Source of the DNA: Thermomonas haemolytica
GTDB lineage: Bacteria; Pseudomonadota; Gammaproteobacteria; Xanthomonadales; Xanthomonadaceae
Assembly: GCF_004346265.1 (NCBI RefSeq)
Contig: NZ_SMAP01000006.1
Location: 62,001 to 126,000, forward strand
Direction: 5' to 3'
Length of the DNA stretch: 64,000 bases
Shown: piece by piece, positions 37,604-62,026 of the stretch
Numbering within the stretch: the first letter of the stretch is position 1
Layout: the number at the start of each line of letters is the position of its first letter
Made by a program: the position numbers and the translations under genes
Notes under the pieces: model-generated
The model's input: the letters and a program-made list of their open reading frames with translations, nothing else
The model's database searches: none
Told to the model about the DNA's origin: nothing

Positions 37604-38392
37604 TCAATCCGTGACGGCGCGGGCGGCCTCGAATGCCTGCCCGAACAACGCCTGCACTGGATCAAGCAACTCGCGTGCCAGCACCACCAGCAGGGCCAGG
37701 CCCACCAGCAGGGCCACCGGCATGCCGATCTGGATCGGGTTGAACTGCGGGGCCGCGCGCGACAGCACGCCCATGACCGTGTTCACCGCCAGCATCGCCA
37801 CCGTCACCGGCAGCGACATCAGCACCGCCGCGCGCAGCACCGCCGGGAAGAACGCCGGCAGCACCGACAGGAAATGCGACAGGTCCGCCAGCGGCTTGCC
37901 GATCGGCTGCGCGCGGTAGCTGTCGGCCAGCAGCTGGATCAGCGCCACGTGCGCATTCAGGCTGAAGAACACCAGCCCGAAGATCAGGTAGAACCAGGTG
38001 GACAGCACCGGCACCTGGGTCTGGTTGGCAGGGTCGGCCATGGTGGCGAACGACAGCGCCATGCCCTGCGAGGCGAATTGCCCGGCCAGCATCCCGGCCT
38101 CGAACGCCAGCTTGATCAGCAGCCCGATGGACAGGCCGATGGCGAATTCGCGCAGCACGTTGAGGGCGGTGGCGGCATCCACCGCGGCCGGCGGCGGGGC
38201 CGGCAACATCCCCGACAGGGCGGCCGCCAGCACCAGGGTGAACAGCATGCGCGCGCGCCGCGGCACGCCCTTGCCGCCGATCGCCGGCAGCACCTGCATG
38301 GCGGCGCCGATCCGGATGGAGTGCCAAAGGACCGTCGCCAGCATCCCGAACAGGTTCAACCCGTCGGCGGTGGTCAGGGTGACGGTGTCCAC
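37604..38392 (-). CDS. fliR: Flagellar export apparatus protein FliR
   Basis: FliR is a core subunit of the FliPQR export channel. From the GTG at 38392 the product has 262 residues, matching the family, with membrane helices beginning at FGMLATVLWHSIRIGAAMQVLPAIGGKGVPRRAR, later LVFFSLNAHVALIQLLADSYRAQPIG, and the C-terminal PQFNPIQIGMPVALLVGLALL. The upstream reading frame within fliQ is not plausible as FliR. The start lies 8 bp after the fliQ stop. Confidence 0.93.
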   Translation of the reverse strand: MDTVTLTTADGLNLFGMLATVLWHSIRIGAAMQVLPAIGGKGVPRRARMLFTLVLAAALSGMLPAPPPAAVDAATALNVLREFAIGLSIGLLIKLAFEAGMLAGQFASQGMALSFATMADPANQTQVPVLSTWFYLIFGLVFFSLNAHVALIQLLADSYRAQPIGKPLADLSHFLSVLPAFFPAVLRAAVLMSLPVTVAMLAVNTVMGVLSRAAPQFNPIQIGMPVALLVGLALLVVLARELLDPVQALFGQAFEAARAVTD

Positions 38393-51350: not shown

Positions 51351-52757
51351 TCAACCCGCACGCGCCATCCGCGTCCCGCCGCCGGCAGCGCGCTTGCGCT
51401 CGCGGGCGGGGGCGATGGCCAACTGCTCACGATACTTCGCCACCGTGCGCCGCGCCACGCGGATGCCCTGGCGCGCCAGCAGCGCCGCGATCGCATCGTC
51501 CGCCAGCGGGGCATGCGCGGGCTCGCTCTCGATCAGGCGGCGCACCATCGCCTTGATTGCCGCGCCGGAGACATCGGCACCCTCCAGCCGCACCGCGAAC
51601 AGTTGCTTGAGCTCCAGCGTGCCGCGCGGGGTCTGGATGTACTTGCCGGTGGTGATGCGCGAGACGGTGGACTCGTGCATGCCGATCTCCTCGGCCACGT
51701 CCTTCAGGGTCAGCGGCGCGATGGATTCCTCGCCGTGTTCGAGGAAGGCCTGCTGGCGCGCCACCAGCACGCGCGCGGTCTTGAGCAGGGTTTCGTTGCG
51801 GATGCCCAGGCTGCGCAGCATCCAGCGCGCCTCTTCGAGCAGCCCGCGCATGCCCTCATGCCCGCTGGCGGCCTGCTCGGCGTAGGCGCACAGGCGCAGC
51901 CGCGGCTGGCTGCGGGTATTCAGGCGCACCTGCCAGCCGCCGTTGGCGCGCCAGGCGATCACGTCGGGGACGATATAGGCCGGCTCCGGCTCCGGTGGCT
52001 GCTCCACCGGATGCGGCTGCAGCGAGAGCACCAGCGACACCGCCGCGGCGATTTCCTCCGACGTGGCGCCAAGCGCGGCGGCCAGCCCGGCCTGGTCGTG
52101 GCGGGCCAGCAGGTCCAGGTGCCCGGACACGATCTGCATGGCCAGCGTGCGCGCGGGGCCCGGGGGCAGGGCGCGCAGCTGGGCCAGCAGGCATTCGCGC
52201 GGATCGGCCGCGGCCATGCCCGGCCACTCGCCGTCCAGCAGGCGTTGGCGGGCGGCCAGCAGTTCGTCGGCGCTGACGCCGGCCAGTTCCTCGCGCAATT
52301 GACTGGCGCCCTGCGCGGCCAAGGCGTCCGGTGGGCCTTCCAGATAGCCGCGGTCGTCGCAGCAATCCAGCCAGTAGGCGGCCAGCGCCAGCTCGCGCGG
52401 CGTGCTGCGCAGGGCCATCTGGTCGAGCAGGCGCTGGCGCGGGTCGGAGGACTGCCCGGCGGCGATGCGGGCGGTGGGGTCGTCGTCGGGATCGCCGGCA
52501 TAGCCTCCACCGGACAGGAACATCGGCTCCGGAAGTTCGTCCCAGGCCGCGGCCTCCAGGCCGGCGCGCTCCGCTTCGGCGGAGGCCGGCAGCGGTTCGT
52601 CTTCGGGTTCCTGCTCCAGCAGCGGATTGCGCTCGAGCAACTGCTGCAGTTCCTGCTCCAGTTGCAGCGAAGTCACCTGCAGCAGCCGGATGGACTGCAG
52701 CAGCTGCGGGGTCAGCGCCATCTGCTGCCCCATCTTCGCCTGCAAGCTTGCCTTCAT
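51351..52757 (-). CDS. rpoN: RNA polymerase sigma-54 factor RpoN
   Basis: RpoN directs transcription from -24/-12 promoters with activators such as FleQ. The 468-residue protein begins MKASLQAKMGQQMALTPQLLQSIRLLQ, the activator-contact region I, followed by an acidic region II, the core-binding domain, the helix-turn-helix (LTLKDVAEEIGMHESTVSRITTGKYIQTP) and the RpoN box ARRTVAKYRE at 435-444. It heads a tight rpoN-vemR-fleQ operon. Xanthomonads commonly have two rpoN genes; this would be the flagellar-locus copy. Confidence 0.96.
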   Translation of the reverse strand: MKASLQAKMGQQMALTPQLLQSIRLLQVTSLQLEQELQQLLERNPLLEQEPEDEPLPASAEAERAGLEAAAWDELPEPMFLSGGGYAGDPDDDPTARIAAGQSSDPRQRLLDQMALRSTPRELALAAYWLDCCDDRGYLEGPPDALAAQGASQLREELAGVSADELLAARQRLLDGEWPGMAAADPRECLLAQLRALPPGPARTLAMQIVSGHLDLLARHDQAGLAAALGATSEEIAAAVSLVLSLQPHPVEQPPEPEPAYIVPDVIAWRANGGWQVRLNTRSQPRLRLCAYAEQAASGHEGMRGLLEEARWMLRSLGIRNETLLKTARVLVARQQAFLEHGEESIAPLTLKDVAEEIGMHESTVSRITTGKYIQTPRGTLELKQLFAVRLEGADVSGAAIKAMVRRLIESEPAHAPLADDAIAALLARQGIRVARRTVAKYREQLAIAPARERKRAAGGGTRMARAG

Positions 52758-56125: not shown

Positions 56126-57007
56126 TCAGCGCAGCAGACTGAGCACGCTCTGCGGAGCCTGGTTGGCCTGGGCCAGCATGGCGGTACCGGCCTGGGTCAG
56201 GATCTGCGTGCGGGTCAGGGCGGCGGTTTCCGCGGCGAAGTCGGTATCCATGATCCGGCTGCGGGCGGCGGAGGTGTTCTCCACCGTGATCTGCAGATTG
56301 CCGATCACCGAGTCGAAGCGGTTCTGGGCCGCACCATAGGTGGCGCGTTCGGCGTTGATCTTGTCCAGCGCCACGTCGATGTCCTTGATCGCGTTGGTCG
56401 AATTGGTGGCGTCGGTGCCCGAGATCGCGGAAGCAGTGGTGATGGTCTTGATCACGTCGTTGGCCGCGCTGCTGCTGGTCAGGGCGCCACTGGCGGCGGC
56501 GGTGCCGCCCGACAGCTGGTTACGCGCCACCGAGACCACGTCGTTGGCGGTGGTGCCGGCGCCGACCTGGAAGCTGAACGAGCTGGAGCCGGTGAACAGC
56601 GAGGTGCCGTTGAAGGTGGTGCCGCCGACCACGCGGGCGATTTCGTCCTGCAGCTGCTTGAACTCGGCATTCAGGTTGTCGCGGTCGCTGGAGCTGTTGG
56701 TGGCGTTTGCCGACTGCACCGCCAGCTCGCGCATGCGCTGCAGGGAGTCGCCGATCTTGCCCAGCGCGCCTTCCGCGGTCTGCGCCAGCGAAATGCCGTC
56801 GTTGGCGTTGCGGATGGCGACATTGTTGCCGCGGATCTGGGCGTTCATGCGCTCGGCGATCGCCAGGCCGGCGGCGTCGTCCTTGGCGCTGTTCACGCGC
56901 AGGCCCGACGACAGGCGCTGGATCGTGGTGGCCTGGGCCATGCTGCTGGTGTAGAGGTTGCGCTGAGCATTCAGCGACATGATGTTGGTGTTGACGCTAT
57001 TAGCCAT
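56126..57007 (-). CDS. fliC: Flagellin FliC
   Basis: This is the only flagellin gene in view. The 293-residue protein has the conserved N-terminal D0/D1 domain, a short middle domain (about residues 170-215, Thr/Ser/Ala-rich) and a C-terminal helix ending LAQANQAPQSVLSLLR. The region matching the plant-immune epitope flg22 spans residues 30-51 and keeps the Asp at position 43. The middle is short, which leaves few exposed residues for modification. A FliA promoter lies about 100 bp upstream. Confidence 0.97.
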   Translation of the reverse strand: MANSVNTNIMSLNAQRNLYTSSMAQATTIQRLSSGLRVNSAKDDAAGLAIAERMNAQIRGNNVAIRNANDGISLAQTAEGALGKIGDSLQRMRELAVQSANATNSSSDRDNLNAEFKQLQDEIARVVGGTTFNGTSLFTGSSSFSFQVGAGTTANDVVSVARNQLSGGTAAASGALTSSSAANDVIKTITTASAISGTDATNSTNAIKDIDVALDKINAERATYGAAQNRFDSVIGNLQITVENTSAARSRIMDTDFAAETAALTRTQILTQAGTAMLAQANQAPQSVLSLLR

Positions 57008-57266: not shown

Positions 57267-58250
57267 CTAGGTGCCCTGTCTGCCTAGCGCCAGCCAGGCC
57301 GCATGCTCCTCCAGCATTCCGAGCGGGTCGTAGCCGAGATCCAGCATCGTGTCCATGATGCCCGGGATGCCTAGGATGTTCTTTGCCTGCTGTCGATCGA
57401 TCAAGTGGCCCCAGCGTTCGATGGGCTGCGATCGCGGCGCTTCGCTCGCACCGAAGAAGGAGAGTTTCTCCATCGAAACCGGGCGTTCGTGGTCAGGGAC
57501 CACACGCAGATGGCCCTGCTTGTCGAACTCTTCACGGATAGCGTAAGCGCTGGGGTTCCCGCCAATGCAGTGCAGCGGCTTTGGTTCGAAGATGTTGTGC
57601 GGACGATCCGAGACGAACCATGCGGCGCGGGACAGCCATTTGTCCATGTTGGACACGAAATCCTCGTGCCGGATGAGCAGACTGGGTGGGGCGAGCACGG
57701 ATACCGTCCTCAGTGCGTGTCGGTAGATATTCCGCCAGCCTTCCGCCGACTGATAGATGTTGGTGTTTCCGGCGCGGAATTGACTGGCGGCGAAGGCCCA
57801 GACCGAGCGCGTCACCACGATCACGCGGGTGGGCAGCACGTCGAGCAGGCCGCGAGCGTTCAGGTACCAGAGCCAATCGACATTCTTCGAGCCGTCCACG
57901 ACGAACGGCTCGTTGAAGCGCGACAGGACTTCCAGGTAGGCATCGATCGTGACCGACTCCGGATCCCCGAGCGGCTGCGGATCCAGCGGATAGATCGGGC
58001 AATCATACGGGTCATGCGTGATGCAGATCGCGCAGCGCGAGCGGTAGTGATTGCTCTCGCGATGAAGGGGAAAGGCGAAGCGGTGCATGTTGTCGATCTC
58101 GCCCGCGTACGCGATTCCCTGGATATCGTTCAAGCTTTGCCCAAGCAGGGAAGAACCCGAGAATGGGCTCCCCAGCAGCAGCGTGACCGATTTCAGGGAA
58201 GTGGACGGCAGGCCCGCACTTGCCTGCCCGGCTGGATTTTCGTTGGACAC
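57267..58250 (-). CDS. Sulfotransferase-family protein in the flagellin-modification position
   Basis: This 327-residue protein has the two PAPS-binding motifs of sulfotransferases: a 5'-phosphosulfate loop GSPFSGSSLL at residues 27-36, and a 3'-phosphate motif with R148 and S156 (VTRSVWAFAAS). Between them is a Cys cluster, C73, C76 and C84, with nearby His (H68, H79), which could bind zinc. No signal peptide or membrane helix is seen, so it should act in the cytoplasm. It follows the HAD-domain gene by 12 bp and lies just before fliC. This is where xanthomonads carry flagellin-glycosylation genes. Its GC content is visibly lower than its neighbours. The acceptor is unknown; a flagellin glycan is an inference from position. 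Confidence 0.82.
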   Translation of the reverse strand: MSNENPAGQASAGLPSTSLKSVTLLLGSPFSGSSLLGQSLNDIQGIAYAGEIDNMHRFAFPLHRESNHYRSRCAICITHDPYDCPIYPLDPQPLGDPESVTIDAYLEVLSRFNEPFVVDGSKNVDWLWYLNARGLLDVLPTRVIVVTRSVWAFAASQFRAGNTNIYQSAEGWRNIYRHALRTVSVLAPPSLLIRHEDFVSNMDKWLSRAAWFVSDRPHNIFEPKPLHCIGGNPSAYAIREEFDKQGHLRVVPDHERPVSMEKLSFFGASEAPRSQPIERWGHLIDRQQAKNILGIPGIMDTMLDLGYDPLGMLEEHAAWLALGRQGT

Positions 58251-58262
58251 GTTGAAAGTTCC

Positions 58263-60728
58263 TCAGGCGTTTTCCGGATGCGACGCGTGGAGCTGGGACT
58301 CGCCGTGACTCAATGGGCGCAGGACCAGGTCCAGCACCATTTTGTCGTCACCGCTGACAAGCCCCGCTGGAAGCATCATCAGGGACGTGGGGGAGGCGCA
58401 CTGAAGGAGTCCGTCGCCATGGTCCGTGATGCCATCCAGAAGCAGGTAGGGGCGCACGTCGATGCTTGCATCGTATTCGGCCTGCAGGTGGAGTTCCCCA
58501 GCACGCAGGACACGGGCCTCGAGCAACTGCAGCCAGCGGAAGCGTTCGCCCAGCAACAAGCCCACGTCCGCATCGCCCTCGCCGATCGGGACATGCAGGC
58601 GATAGCAGCCGTCATACGTGGCGTATGCCGCCAGGCTCAGGCGGCCGACCTCGTTCCCCCTCAGGAGCAGAACCGATACCGGCTCCTCCCGGAACGACCA
58701 GTCCCGCGCGCTGAAGGCCAAGCCGAAGCGATAGGTGGACATCATCGCCAGGGTCAGCTCGATCCCGGCATGCCGCAATTCATGCGGGGTGTTGATGCGA
58801 GATCCTTCGCCCTGGCGGGAGGAGTAGAAAATCCCATGGCGGCGAAGCTCCTGCAGGCTGCGCTCGGTGTCGTGCAGGCGGATGACCCGGTCGGTCCCGA
58901 GGTTGAGTTCCAGGGCGAACTGGTCGTAATGGGCCAGTTCCTGCCTGTCCGGGAAAAACACCATGCGTGAGAATTCGGCCAGCGCGGCGTCGCGAAGGGA
59001 ATCGACCGCAGGGCGAGCCCCGCCCGCCTCGTAGTGGGCTTCTGCCTGGCGGATGAAGTCCAACGCATGCTCCTGGATCCGCCGGACGCGCTCGGTCTGG
59101 CGCTTAGTGGTCGCTCCCTGGGACAGGATGGGCGCGCCCTGTTCGGTGTAATCGATCACCGACCCGGTGCTGGTCGTGCACAGGTTTTCCAGCAGGGAGA
59201 CGAACGGGAGCAGAGTGTCGATGGTGCGGGCATCGAATTTCGATGCGTCGATCATGCCGCAGCGTCCGCCGTTGGCGTCGCCCGCCTGGGGCGTGCACAT
59301 GAAATACCAGCCAAGGAGTTCGACACCCCATTCCTCATGCATGACCGGTGCAAGTACCCGCTGCGCCGTACCAACGTAGCCCAGGTCCACGAATGCGAGG
59401 GTATCGCCCCGTTCCAGTCCCCCCAATTCGCGATCCAGGTATTTGCGCAACCTCGCGCGATAGCACGCGGAGCGCTCGGTGATCTTCGCCACCATGCGTG
59501 GATGCAGCACGCGCCTGTTGAATTCCGTCTGCGGCGACGGATGCCCCTGCAGGGCCTCGAGAATGCGATCGCCTTCCTCGCCTTGTAGGCCAAGCTGCTT
59601 CAGCATTGCCGCATACTCGCCGGAAGTGGCGAACAGGGCGAGGTAACGCTCGATGTCGCCTGCGTCGCGGAACGAAGCGGCAAACGCAGCGAAGCGGGAG
59701 ATGTAGACAGGGCGGCCATCCGTCTGTCCGGAAAGCGCTTCGTAGGCGGCATGCGGCAGGTAGCCGTCGCGCAGCAGGAACGCCAGCTTGACGCGCTTTC
59801 CAAGCGATTGCTGCGCCTCCCGATGCGCCAGAAGCCAGCTTGCGAAGGCGTGCATCAATGGACCGAGGGTGGCGATGCCGATGCTGCGGTCCGCGTCATC
59901 CCCGTCCAGGGCAAGGCCTGCGATCACCGGATGGTAGCCAGCGGGGGCACCCCGCTCGGAGCGAATGCTCGGTTCGAGCAGACGAAGCGCAGTCGCGGCG
60001 AACTGCCTGCGAGACTCGAGCATTTCCGGTAGGTGCTGTAGATGGAGGCAAGCAATCCCGGCGGCCCGCGCCGGGAACACATCCGCAAGCGGGTTGTCGC
60101 CAACGTGGAGCATGCGCGCCACGGGCAAGTTCAGGCGACTTGCTAGCAGCGGGAAAAGGCCGTCTGCCTTCGATTTCCCGTATTCGCATGAAACGCAGAC
60201 CCGATGGATCGCGGCATAGGCATCCGCGGGCAGGCAGGCAGCGAGGAGCCTACGCAGCAAAGGTTCGGGCAGATAGGTGTCGGACACGACCATGACCTGC
60301 ACGCCGCGCGCCGCTGCCGCGCGCAACAGCGCAACGGCCTGGGGCATGGCATGGCACGCCTGCTCCTCTGCCTGCAGTTCGACTTCCTGGAGCGATTTCA
60401 TCATCTCGGGCGCCAGGTCATCGCAGGCGGCCCGGTAGATGTCCTCGAGCGTGACTTCGTGGCTGCCCCGTCGCAACTGGGCCAGGCTGCGTGCCTGCAT
60501 CTCCGCCCGAATCCGGAGCCTGGCATCCAGGCCGACGGCTTTCCATGCCGGTTGCTGCTGCATGTCGTAGAACACGTCTGCCGGATGTGCGGTCTTCCGC
60601 CACAAGATGGTGTCGAAGCAATCCAGGGACAGGAGTTTCACGCGCGGGAAGCGATCCAGTGCGGAGCCGAGATCACTGACGCGGAGGGTGTCCTCGGGAG
60701 CAAGGCCTGCGGGTGCTGTCATCGTCAT
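58263..60728 (-). CDS. Large HAD-superfamily protein (COG5610-like) of a surface-glycan or flagellin-modification locus
   Basis: The ~821-residue product has an N-terminal HAD hydrolase domain (about 30-230) with complete motifs: nucleophile region LDCFDT (D36), VVSDTY (S149), K185 in YGKSK, and VGDNPLADV (D211, D216). A second conserved region follows, with LAFLLRDGYLPHAAYEAL, YISRFAAFAASF and FVDLGYVGTAQRVLAPVM, as in HAD proteins found in capsule and glycan clusters. The last ~200 residues look like a beta-rich domain with no assigned family. No glycosyltransferase motif was recognised. It lies between flgL and the sulfotransferase gene, with a sigma-54-type promoter just upstream. The start could also be the ATG at 60722. 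The function is unknown. Confidence 0.8.
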   Translation of the reverse strand: MTMTAPAGLAPEDTLRVSDLGSALDRFPRVKLLSLDCFDTILWRKTAHPADVFYDMQQQPAWKAVGLDARLRIRAEMQARSLAQLRRGSHEVTLEDIYRAACDDLAPEMMKSLQEVELQAEEQACHAMPQAVALLRAAAARGVQVMVVSDTYLPEPLLRRLLAACLPADAYAAIHRVCVSCEYGKSKADGLFPLLASRLNLPVARMLHVGDNPLADVFPARAAGIACLHLQHLPEMLESRRQFAATALRLLEPSIRSERGAPAGYHPVIAGLALDGDDADRSIGIATLGPLMHAFASWLLAHREAQQSLGKRVKLAFLLRDGYLPHAAYEALSGQTDGRPVYISRFAAFAASFRDAGDIERYLALFATSGEYAAMLKQLGLQGEEGDRILEALQGHPSPQTEFNRRVLHPRMVAKITERSACYRARLRKYLDRELGGLERGDTLAFVDLGYVGTAQRVLAPVMHEEWGVELLGWYFMCTPQAGDANGGRCGMIDASKFDARTIDTLLPFVSLLENLCTTSTGSVIDYTEQGAPILSQGATTKRQTERVRRIQEHALDFIRQAEAHYEAGGARPAVDSLRDAALAEFSRMVFFPDRQELAHYDQFALELNLGTDRVIRLHDTERSLQELRRHGIFYSSRQGEGSRINTPHELRHAGIELTLAMMSTYRFGLAFSARDWSFREEPVSVLLLRGNEVGRLSLAAYATYDGCYRLHVPIGEGDADVGLLLGERFRWLQLLEARVLRAGELHLQAEYDASIDVRPYLLLDGITDHGDGLLQCASPTSLMMLPAGLVSGDDKMVLDLVLRPLSHGESQLHASHPENA

Positions 60729-60760
60729 ATCGGCTCGCTGGAAAGACGTGATCGTCCTTC

Positions 60761-60777
60761 TGCAAACCATATGCCAA
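60761..60777 (-). promoter_or_regulatory. Sigma-54 (RpoN) promoter of the HAD-sulfotransferase operon
   Basis: The minus strand reads TTGGCATATGGTTTGCA: GG and GC are ten bases apart, -24 is TGGCAT and -12 is TTTGC. It lies in the gap after flgL, about 35 bp before the ATG, with room for a ~20-nt leader. The match is as good as at fliL. Confidence 0.75.
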
Positions 60778-60817: not shown

Positions 60818-62026
60818 TCAGAGCTTGTCGAACAGCGAGCTGCTCTGCAGGCGGGCCATCATCCGCTGGGCGGCGTCGAGGGCGGTCATGTTGTACTGCA
60901 GCTTGCTGATGGCGTCGGCCAGGTCGGTGTCGCGCAGGCCGGAGAGCATCTCGGTCATGGCCACGTTGCTGGCGCTGCGCATGGCGTCGGCGCTGTCGAG
61001 GTTGCTCATGCGGATGCCGGTCTCGGCGCGGATGTCCAGCAGGTGCTGCTGCGCCCCGGCGAGGTCTTCCTGCCCGGCGCGCAGTGCGTTGGCGCGCCGC
61101 GCGACATCGGCGGCGCTGTTGCCGGGCTGGTCGAGTGCGTCGGCCAGGTTCTTCAGGGTGGCGAAGATGTCCTGGCTGGGCGAGCGTTCCACGGTGAAGC
61201 TGTCGCCCGCGGCCGGGGTGCCGCTGACCACGAACTGCACGCCCTGCGCGCTGATCGGCTGGCCGGGGGTGAAGCTGCCCGCGACCGGCGGTGACAGCGG
61301 GTTGCCACTGCCGTCCACCACTTCGTAATTGCCGGCGCTGGGGAAGCGCAGCTGCAGGGTGGAGCCATTCCAGGTGGTGCTGCTGGTGATCTGGGCGGAT
61401 TCCAGCACGCCGCTGCCGGTATTGCCGGCGGCGGCGCGGGCGCGGCTGATGCCGTCGCCGGTGGGGATGTTCATGAACACCCGGCTGCCGGCATCGGTAT
61501 CGGCCAGTGCGGTATCGGGCGCCACGTCCACCAGGTTCTGGCCGTCGTTGCCGAGGTAGCTGACGTTGCCGGCACCGCTGGTGAACGGCTTGACCCCGTC
61601 CTGGGTGCCCGCGAACAGCTGGCGGCCGCGGCCATCGTCGCGATTGGCGATCTGCAGCATGCTCTCGCGCAGGCCGCGCAGCTCGACCACGATGGCGTGG
61701 CGGTCGCTGTCGCTGAGTGCGCCGTTGCCGGCCTGCACCGCCAGCTCGCGGGCGCGCTGCAGCAGGTCGCCGGCATCGGCCAGCGCGCCTTCCTGCTGGC
61801 GCAGGCGGTCGCCCAGCAGGGTGCTGTTGCGGTCGAACTGGCCGAGCGACGCCAGCGCGTGGTCGAGGTGCTGGACGTCGGCGATCCCGGTGGGGTCGTC
61901 GGCGCCGCGGGTGAGCTTCACCCCGGAGGCGATCTGCTGCTGGTACTTGCTGATCTCGCCCTGGCGCATGCGCATCATCGAGAGCGCGTCGTACTGCATC
62001 TGGGCGGTGGAAAGGCGCATCGTCAT
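60818..62026 (-). CDS. flgL: Flagellar hook-filament junction protein FlgL (HAP3)
   Basis: FlgL is the second junction protein between hook and filament. The 402-residue protein has flagellin-like ends: MRLSTAQMQYDALSMMRMRQGEISKYQQQIASGVKLTRGADDPTGIADVQHLDHAL in outline at the start and LQYNMTALDAAQRMMARLQSSSLFDKL at the end. The middle includes a beta-rich insert with VVSGTPAAGDSFTV, a motif also present in FlgK. GAGGA lies seven bases before the chosen ATG. It follows flgK by 13 bp. Confidence 0.96.
   Translation of the reverse strand: MTMRLSTAQMQYDALSMMRMRQGEISKYQQQIASGVKLTRGADDPTGIADVQHLDHALASLGQFDRNSTLLGDRLRQQEGALADAGDLLQRARELAVQAGNGALSDSDRHAIVVELRGLRESMLQIANRDDGRGRQLFAGTQDGVKPFTSGAGNVSYLGNDGQNLVDVAPDTALADTDAGSRVFMNIPTGDGISRARAAAGNTGSGVLESAQITSSTTWNGSTLQLRFPSAGNYEVVDGSGNPLSPPVAGSFTPGQPISAQGVQFVVSGTPAAGDSFTVERSPSQDIFATLKNLADALDQPGNSAADVARRANALRAGQEDLAGAQQHLLDIRAETGIRMSNLDSADAMRSASNVAMTEMLSGLRDTDLADAISKLQYNMTALDAAQRMMARLQSSSLFDKL

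Follow-up and report, generated by a model that had tools for sequence, protein, structure and literature searches.

Among the closest described systems is the CrpP-CriT module of Bcs3, the capsule polymerase of Haemophilus influenzae type b (8A0C, 8A0M), in which a HAD phosphatase is fused to a PRTase-like ribofuranosyltransferase. According to PMC10299916, motif I of the CrpP phosphatase has kept just its first Asp. The polysaccharide ribofuranosyltransferase of Thermobacillus composti (7SHG) and the O-antigen PRP-gPRTs are likewise two-domain enzymes, and the characterised PRP-gPRT enzymes covered in PMC11127046 and PMC10299916 ribosylate polysaccharides. KrkA of the E. coli K13 capsule combines a Kdo transferase with a ribosyltransferase and, as described in PMC12887879, is annotated as a HAD phosphatase. 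The locus analysed here lies in a 64,000-nt stretch of Thermomonas haemolytica DNA (the window) and carries a putative relative of these enzymes in a flagellar setting. Flagellin glycosylation islands are known in Gram-negative bacteria, and searches for flagellin glycosylation usually rely on nucleotide-sugar genes. Some archaeal filament glycans are sulfated.

A HAD-domain gene and its partner between flgL and fliC

Two minus-strand ORFs, separated by 12 bp (58251-58262), lie between flgL (60818..62026, minus strand), the upstream neighbour, and the flagellin gene fliC (56126..57007, minus strand), the downstream neighbour and presumed target; both neighbours were assigned from the ORF list and locus comparison. 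The coordinates confirm the arrangement reported in the initial annotation, namely a HAD-domain gene followed by a second gene at this spot. The sigma-54 gene rpoN (51351..52757, minus strand; PF04552, PF04963, PF00309) is part of the same flagellar block. The large ORF is listed as 58263-60770 (minus strand); its true start is almost certainly ATG 60728, giving 821 aa, because ATG 60770 sits within a -24/-12 element and the relatives in genomes G008 and G018 have the start that corresponds to 60728. The second ORF (57267..58250, minus strand) begins with GTG and encodes a 327-aa protein with a predicted sulfotransferase fold (ORF list, alignment and structure prediction). The pair occupies the position of flagellin glycosylation islands, as exemplified by G015 of the same genus; unlike them, it contains no nucleotide-sugar genes, and its donors would be PRPP and PAPS.

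Profile, alignment and fold comparison indicate that the larger gene (58263..60728, minus strand) encodes a fused phosphoribose phosphatase and PRPP-dependent glycan phosphoribosyltransferase (PRP-gPRT) of the CrpP-CriT type, with an extra C-terminal domain. In the HAD phosphatase (PRP/CrpP-like) domain (approximately residues 28-245; 59994..60647, minus strand; profile and alignment), the nucleophile D36, S149-D150, K187, G210-D211-N212 and D216 are invariant in 13/13 rows, and motif I, here D36-C-F-D39, keeps only its first Asp, the nucleophile. Joined to it is the PRTase-like gPRT/CriT-like domain (approximately residues 279-607; 58908..59894, minus strand; alignment), where F317, R320, S344-R345, D448, G453, Q456 and E514 are invariant in 13/13 rows. 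The C-terminal domain (approximately residues 612-821; 58266..58895, minus strand; delimited by HMM) had no match in a Pfam search. An HMM built from four rows of this domain recognises 13 of the 15 flagellin-type rows, its own four among them, and at E<=10 it hits no row outside that type (12 rows); by this comparison, the domain marks most of the flagellin-type ribosyltransferase group.

Since the match of Bcs3/7SHG type continues across the second domain, we discarded the idea of a plain HAD phosphatase. Under a stricter profile, the Bcs3 match is limited to the HAD part, and the Foldseek TM-scores are low (0.30-0.46). The position of Bcs3 R708 is kept as R345, that of R712 is occupied by F349 (7SHG carries Y there in the same alignment), and the T825 equivalent is shifted by one according to a hand count. 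The PRPP loop reads VDLGYVGTAQ here versus VDVGWKGTIQ in 7SHG. By profile and predicted fold, the protein is a putative bipartite phosphatase/PRPP-dependent ribofuranosyltransferase. Both of its domains align with the Bcs3 module in the same order; however, the CroT (TagF-like) domain of Bcs3 is absent here, whereas the C-terminal domain of about 210 aa is additional. Bcs3 belongs to a capsule locus, while this gene is found at a flagellin locus with an RpoN-type promoter and a sulfotransferase-fold partner; the 7SHG enzyme and the O-antigen PRP-gPRTs also differ from the cassette in locus, C-terminal domain and partner gene. KrkA resembles the present case in that a ribosyltransferase is hidden under a HAD phosphatase label, but, as PMC12887879 presents it, KrkA is a single fused capsule protein, whereas the window has a sulfotransferase instead.

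The sulfotransferase assignment proposed for the second protein finds its support in the predicted structure. No Pfam, NCBIfam or PDB sequence matched the 327-aa protein at E<=1; it is therefore filed under no named sulfotransferase family, and structure prediction was needed. The model, built on seven rows with pLDDT 73, has the fold expected of PAPS-dependent sulfotransferases, with Foldseek TM-scores, normalised by the model, of 0.36-0.51 in the 15 best rows. Residues G27, F30, G32-S33, R148, F153-A154 and S156 are invariant in 7/7 rows; G27/F30/G32-S33 and R148...S156 may correspond to the 5'-phosphosulfate loop and the 3'-phosphate R...S motif of PAPS-dependent sulfotransferases. Equally invariant (7/7 rows) is C73-x2-C76...C84, and we know of no conserved C-x2-C...C in the tyrosylprotein or polyketide-synthase sulfotransferase families, which the protein otherwise resembles in predicted fold (5WRJ, 4GOX). 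Identity in these fold alignments is 13-17%, and the protein stands apart in having no Pfam match. Tyrosylprotein sulfotransferases are among its best fold matches, as would be expected if the enzyme sulfated tyrosines of flagellin itself, independently of ribose, an explanation that we consider improbable.

Promoter, base composition and exchange of the cassette

A candidate -24/-12 (RpoN-type) promoter, TGGCATATGGTTTGCA (60761..60776, minus strand), precedes the pair; it combines exact GG-N10-GC spacing with the flanking consensus and a conserved position. The site had been placed 35 bp before the first start codon, but it ends 32 nt before ATG 60728. The pattern TGGCAY-N5-TTGCW has five exact matches in the 2.59-Mb genome (none for the reversed-pattern control), four of them on contig 6, the flagellar contig that holds the window. 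Two of the other sites precede flhB and flgJ, and the remaining two stand upstream of no nameable gene. With one mismatch permitted, the window contains six sites against 2.3 expected, a number reached in 3/100 shuffles. A high-scoring site is found upstream in 7/7 orthologues tested, and at -32 in five of the seven (as the second-best site in G434). The motif and the flagellar-locus position support the claimed flagellar link and an RpoN-type promoter.

The deviating base composition claimed for the pair is real, although it had been illustrated with weak evidence. The G+C counts quoted for three 60-nt lines (36, 38 and 47) are exact, but counts of 38 or lower occur in 162 of the window's 1066 lines, which makes single lines weak evidence. 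The whole pair has 63.7% G+C versus 71.0% elsewhere, and 26 of 1211 equal-length windows are as low, the lowest beginning at 56951; acquisition from outside was rejected as a conclusion from G+C alone, being too weakly supported. Four-fold-site agreement with the near relative G008 is 92% for flgL and fliC, 85% for fliD and 75% for the HAD gene; with the more distant G018, it is 73% for flgL and 85% for the HAD gene. This contrast is a stronger sign of exchange than G+C, with the reservation that the G008 figures could be depressed by assembly errors in that genome. Comparison with G018 also places a recombination breakpoint at 58342..58442, close to the 3' end of the gene for the PRP-gPRT: the two genomes are 84-99% identical upstream of it within the gene and unrelated downstream. 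By these alignments, the gene downstream of the ribosyltransferase is swapped between genomes. Of the proposed acquired system, a horizontally exchanged cassette is upheld from sequence; however, GC3 reaches 0.92 in the G434 and G492 orthologues, so that the data do not demonstrate a source beyond the family.

The lower G+C of the pair and the frame breaks in its G008 copies could also point to a decaying or silent insertion. We consider this very improbable: both ORFs are uninterrupted in the T. haemolytica genome, the active-site residues are invariant and the promoter is conserved, while the G008 frame breaks are probably long-read errors, since that assembly bears a canu contig name and its completeness is 89%.

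Distribution of the ribosyltransferase group

The same-genus survey covered 25 genomes, nine of them with flgL. The ribosyltransferase cassette is present at the flgL-fliC spot in three of the nine (T. haemolytica, G008 and G018), and G015 has a 12-kb sugar island there. The gap between the genes is 342 bp in G007, 653 bp in G002 and about 1.6 kb in G023 and G024; in G013, fliC was not found within the stretch taken around flgL. The view that glycosylation genes are the normal content of this position in xanthomonads is thus only partly right. The sulfotransferase gene is rare (2/60 relatives and 2/369 class genomes, the T. haemolytica genome counted in both).

The wider family search comprised 22 genomes, with surroundings inspected for 15 of them, and L075, L078 and L079 were used of the 11 loci from the viral_contigs scan. 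Association with flagellin genes is a recurrent feature of the ribosyltransferase group across several bacterial families: 13 of the 17 group loci adjoin flagellin genes, in six families and in both orientations to fliC, and such adjacency was not shown for G1090, G628, G780 and L075 (contig edge). Other-type PRP-gPRT members fall across a supported branch and have no match to the C-terminal domain HMM. These observations, together with a promoter motif shared with flhB and flgJ, argue against a cassette that is sited in the flagellar region but modifies LPS or some other polysaccharide of the cell surface. Such an activity, which seems unlikely to us, would suit the polysaccharide substrates of the PRP-gPRT members characterised in PMC10299916 and PMC11127046, as well as the recurrence of the sulfotransferase partner in acetic acid bacteria loci with no flagellar genes in view. 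Indeed, outside the genus, no flagellar gene was found near the pair in A. ascendens, A. tropicalis and Acidocella, on contigs of sufficient length. Nevertheless, homologous pairs are not confined to capsule loci lacking a flagellar link: inside Thermomonas, two genomes have the pair at the flagellin locus, and where the ribosyltransferase occurs without its sulfotransferase partner, the setting is mostly flagellar.

Downstream of the flagellin-locus relative, both G018 and G492 encode a Capsule_synth-type protein and a cytidylyltransferase/RraA-like protein, neighbours that by analogy may imply a ribose-plus-ulosonate logic like that of KrkA. The relative in G995 is part of an island next to two flagellins, which also carries genes resembling those of aminotransferases, cytidylyltransferases and dehydratases (assigned mostly by eye).

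Proposed modification of the flagellar filament

We think it rather probable that the two-gene cassette adds ribose and sulfate to the flagellar filament and draws on central metabolites only. Sigma-54, as part of the flagellar programme, would transcribe both genes from the -24/-12 promoter. The gPRT domain would move 5-phospho-ribofuranose from PRPP onto flagellin or a flagellin-borne sugar, and the fused HAD phosphatase would strip the 5-phosphate to leave beta-ribofuranose. The sulfotransferase-fold protein would then transfer sulfate from PAPS, with a hydroxyl of this ribose as the simplest acceptor; an APS kinase gene is present in the genome. We infer the enzyme activities, the flagellin target, the order of steps and ribose as the sulfate acceptor. 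The sulfated group (+80 Da) predicted earlier is compatible with the sulfotransferase fold, but a PRPP-dependent ribofuranosyltransferase leads us to expect a mark of +132 Da for ribose, rising to +212 Da together with a sulfate attached to the ribose or close by, instead of sulfate alone.

The pair could also extend a larger flagellin glycan that genes elsewhere in the genome begin, ribose and sulfate being late caps; we lean against this form of the filament-decoration reading, which is not fully exclusive of it. Known gPRTs use sugar acceptors, and the G995 island has sugar genes beside its flagellins; in T. haemolytica, however, no sugar gene beyond the pair lies between flgL and fliC, and PF01973 has no match in the genome, a weak test because the model matched only four of 14 control genomes, all archaea.

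Literature searches, judged by titles, found no work on ribofuranose modification of flagellin and none joining flagellin with pentofuranose; only PMC11127046 joined at least two of ribofuranosyltransferase, phosphoribose phosphatase and flagella. Flagellin glycosylation combined with sulfotransferase matched work on giant viruses only, and combined with haloacid dehalogenase, work on Campylobacter capsules only. The PRP-gPRTs characterised in PMC10299916 and PMC11127046 act on polysaccharides, so that using a protein or a flagellin glycan as acceptor would be a novelty for these enzymes. Tentatively, and with slightly less confidence than doubt, we suggest that a flagella-dedicated group of PRPP-dependent ribofuranosyltransferases attaches ribose straight to side chains of flagellin, and that interchangeable downstream genes cap it with sulfate (Thermomonas), an ulosonic-type sugar, methyl groups or ribitol phosphate. 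If so, flagellin decoration would be modular, with a base that needs no nucleotide-sugar pathway. Such a PRPP/PAPS route would be overlooked because its key gene resembles a HAD hydrolase; if the proposal is true, it would constitute a new protein (or flagellin-glycan) modification and would account for unassigned HAD genes beside flagellin.

The flagellar cassette and its relatives

The two genes of the cassette lie between flgL and fliC on the minus strand and are separated by 12 bp: the HAD gene (58263–60728, 821 aa), predicted to encode a fused phosphoribose phosphatase and PRPP-dependent ribosyltransferase with an extra C-terminal domain, and a 327-aa putative sulfotransferase gene (57267–58250). 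An alternative longer HAD ORF from position 60770 would begin within the promoter. The rpoN gene (51351–52757) belongs to the same block; the genome size is 2.59 Mb. Three cysteines of the sulfotransferase (C73-x2-C76...C84, gene at 57267–58250), kept in 7/7 rows, are perhaps a metal site.

In the family search, the HAD gene was present in 22 of 395 genomes, and the neighbourhoods of 15 of these 22 were viewed. The gene is located between flgL and fliC in five of the 15 (its own genome, G008, G018, G434, and G492) and adjoins type III secretion translocon genes in two (G628 and G780); no flgL or fliC match was found within about 9 kb on each side in eight (loci L060–L067, the L067 stretch being shorter). 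The class search revealed the gene in 4 of 369 genomes, its own counted. It is again flanked by flgL and fliC in G400, as well as in G783 from the same family, where two of four genomes carry it. In the other two genomes, the HMM of the C-terminal domain had no match: G204, whose contig is only 3 kb, and G408, where no flagellar match was found near the HAD gene. The phylum search yielded 8 of 398 genomes, again with its own counted; a flagellin gene is 0.9–3.2 kb away in six of the seven other loci (G894, G858, G986, G995, G925, and G1096), unlike G1090. In total, this group comprises 17 loci, a contig edge from viral_contigs (L075) being counted among the 17, and 13 of them are flagellin loci from six families (f1, f144, f223, f193, f118, and f226); flagellin-locus genes made up 4/6 rows of the searching profile, and location was not a search criterion.

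Several neighbourhoods have features of their own. The group member of L058 (G628) adjoins type III secretion genes with SseC and IpaC/SipC Pfam matches, and the fragmented copy of L059 (G780) adjoins a tip-complex gene; an OmpA-like protein is also adjacent in both, and the target modified there may be other than flagellin. An Acetobacter ascendens plasmid typed as conjugative (L031, 8470–22151) carries a ribosyltransferase–sulfotransferase pair, its genes facing each other, with two glycosyltransferases, surrounded by toxin–antitoxin and contact-inhibition immunity genes. In G002, of the same genus, flgL is followed by four consecutive flagellin genes (L026, 8315–13057).

RpoN-type promoter

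The TGGCAY-N5-TTGCW motif has five exact matches genome-wide, including the cassette site; four of them are on contig 6, among them those directly before flhB (37665–37680) and, just beyond the window, directly before flgJ (contig positions 126937–126952). With the analyst's own weighted consensus (maximum score 20.3), 5 of 127,970 window positions score at least 18.3, and each of these lies on the flagellar strand; between one and four sites of that level are present in each of six further loci, 8.9–19.5 kb in length. Such a site is present within 300 bp upstream in all seven orthologues tested: at −32 in G000 (the own genome), G008, G018, G434, and G492, at −178 in G400, and at −185 in G783. 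In G434, an alternative site at −205 scores slightly higher than that at −32, the start codon being the analyst's choice.

Phylogeny and exchange of the downstream partner

In the 27-row tree, from which the broken G008 and G780 copies were excluded, a branch with 97/96 support separates off 15 rows, of which 12 are flagellin-locus genes. Three label changes were observed against a shuffled mean of 9.1, a value equally low in 0 of 500 shuffles; several long branches were flagged. The HMM of the C-terminal domain (about residues 612–821), built from four of the flagellin-side rows, matches 13 of these 15, the exceptions being G925 and G1096, and none of the 12 remaining rows.

When comparing G000 with G018, the HAD gene is 84–99% identical up to about position 58440 and unrelated beyond, whereas similarity with G008 continues into the sulfotransferase gene. 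The downstream genes shared by G018 and G492 encode a Capsule_synth-type protein together with one that is cytidylyltransferase/RraA-like. In G434, two downstream proteins lack a Pfam match, one of them methyltransferase-like by eye; methyltransferase-domain proteins occur at the loci of G400, G783, G894, and G858. One ribosyltransferase is thus retained while the partner gene varies; this pattern suggests ribose as the base, with the partner product capping it.

In flagellin islands L021 (4756–7382) and L057 (5286–7906), a Capsule_synth-type protein is accompanied by a cytidylyltransferase to which an RraA-like domain is fused; we know of no precedent for this fusion. Another fusion, of an IspD-like cytidylyltransferase and a short-chain reductase, is found in flagellin-side islands of G995 (L108, 7088–14442), directly adjoining the ribosyltransferase and two flagellins, and of G015 (L023, 1538–4512), adjoining a protein whose LicD match falls slightly below the cut-off. 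It is perhaps a CDP-ribitol synthase like Bcs1, and the two islands suggest ribitol phosphate on flagellin.

Possible flagellin modification

Enzymes of this type have already been described in connection with capsule and O-antigen. The strings "flagell" and "sulf" are both absent from the main text of PMC11127046. No report of ribosylated bacterial flagellin was found in the literature searched, which covered only a minority of subscription papers and therefore does not prove absence. The simplest reading is that ribose would be placed on flagellin or its glycan, dephosphorylated once attached, and then sulfated; target, acceptor, and order of steps are all inferred. Such a cassette would require only PRPP and PAPS as donors, and thus two genes can suffice. 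If this is true, mass shifts of +132.04 and +212.00 Da would be expected.
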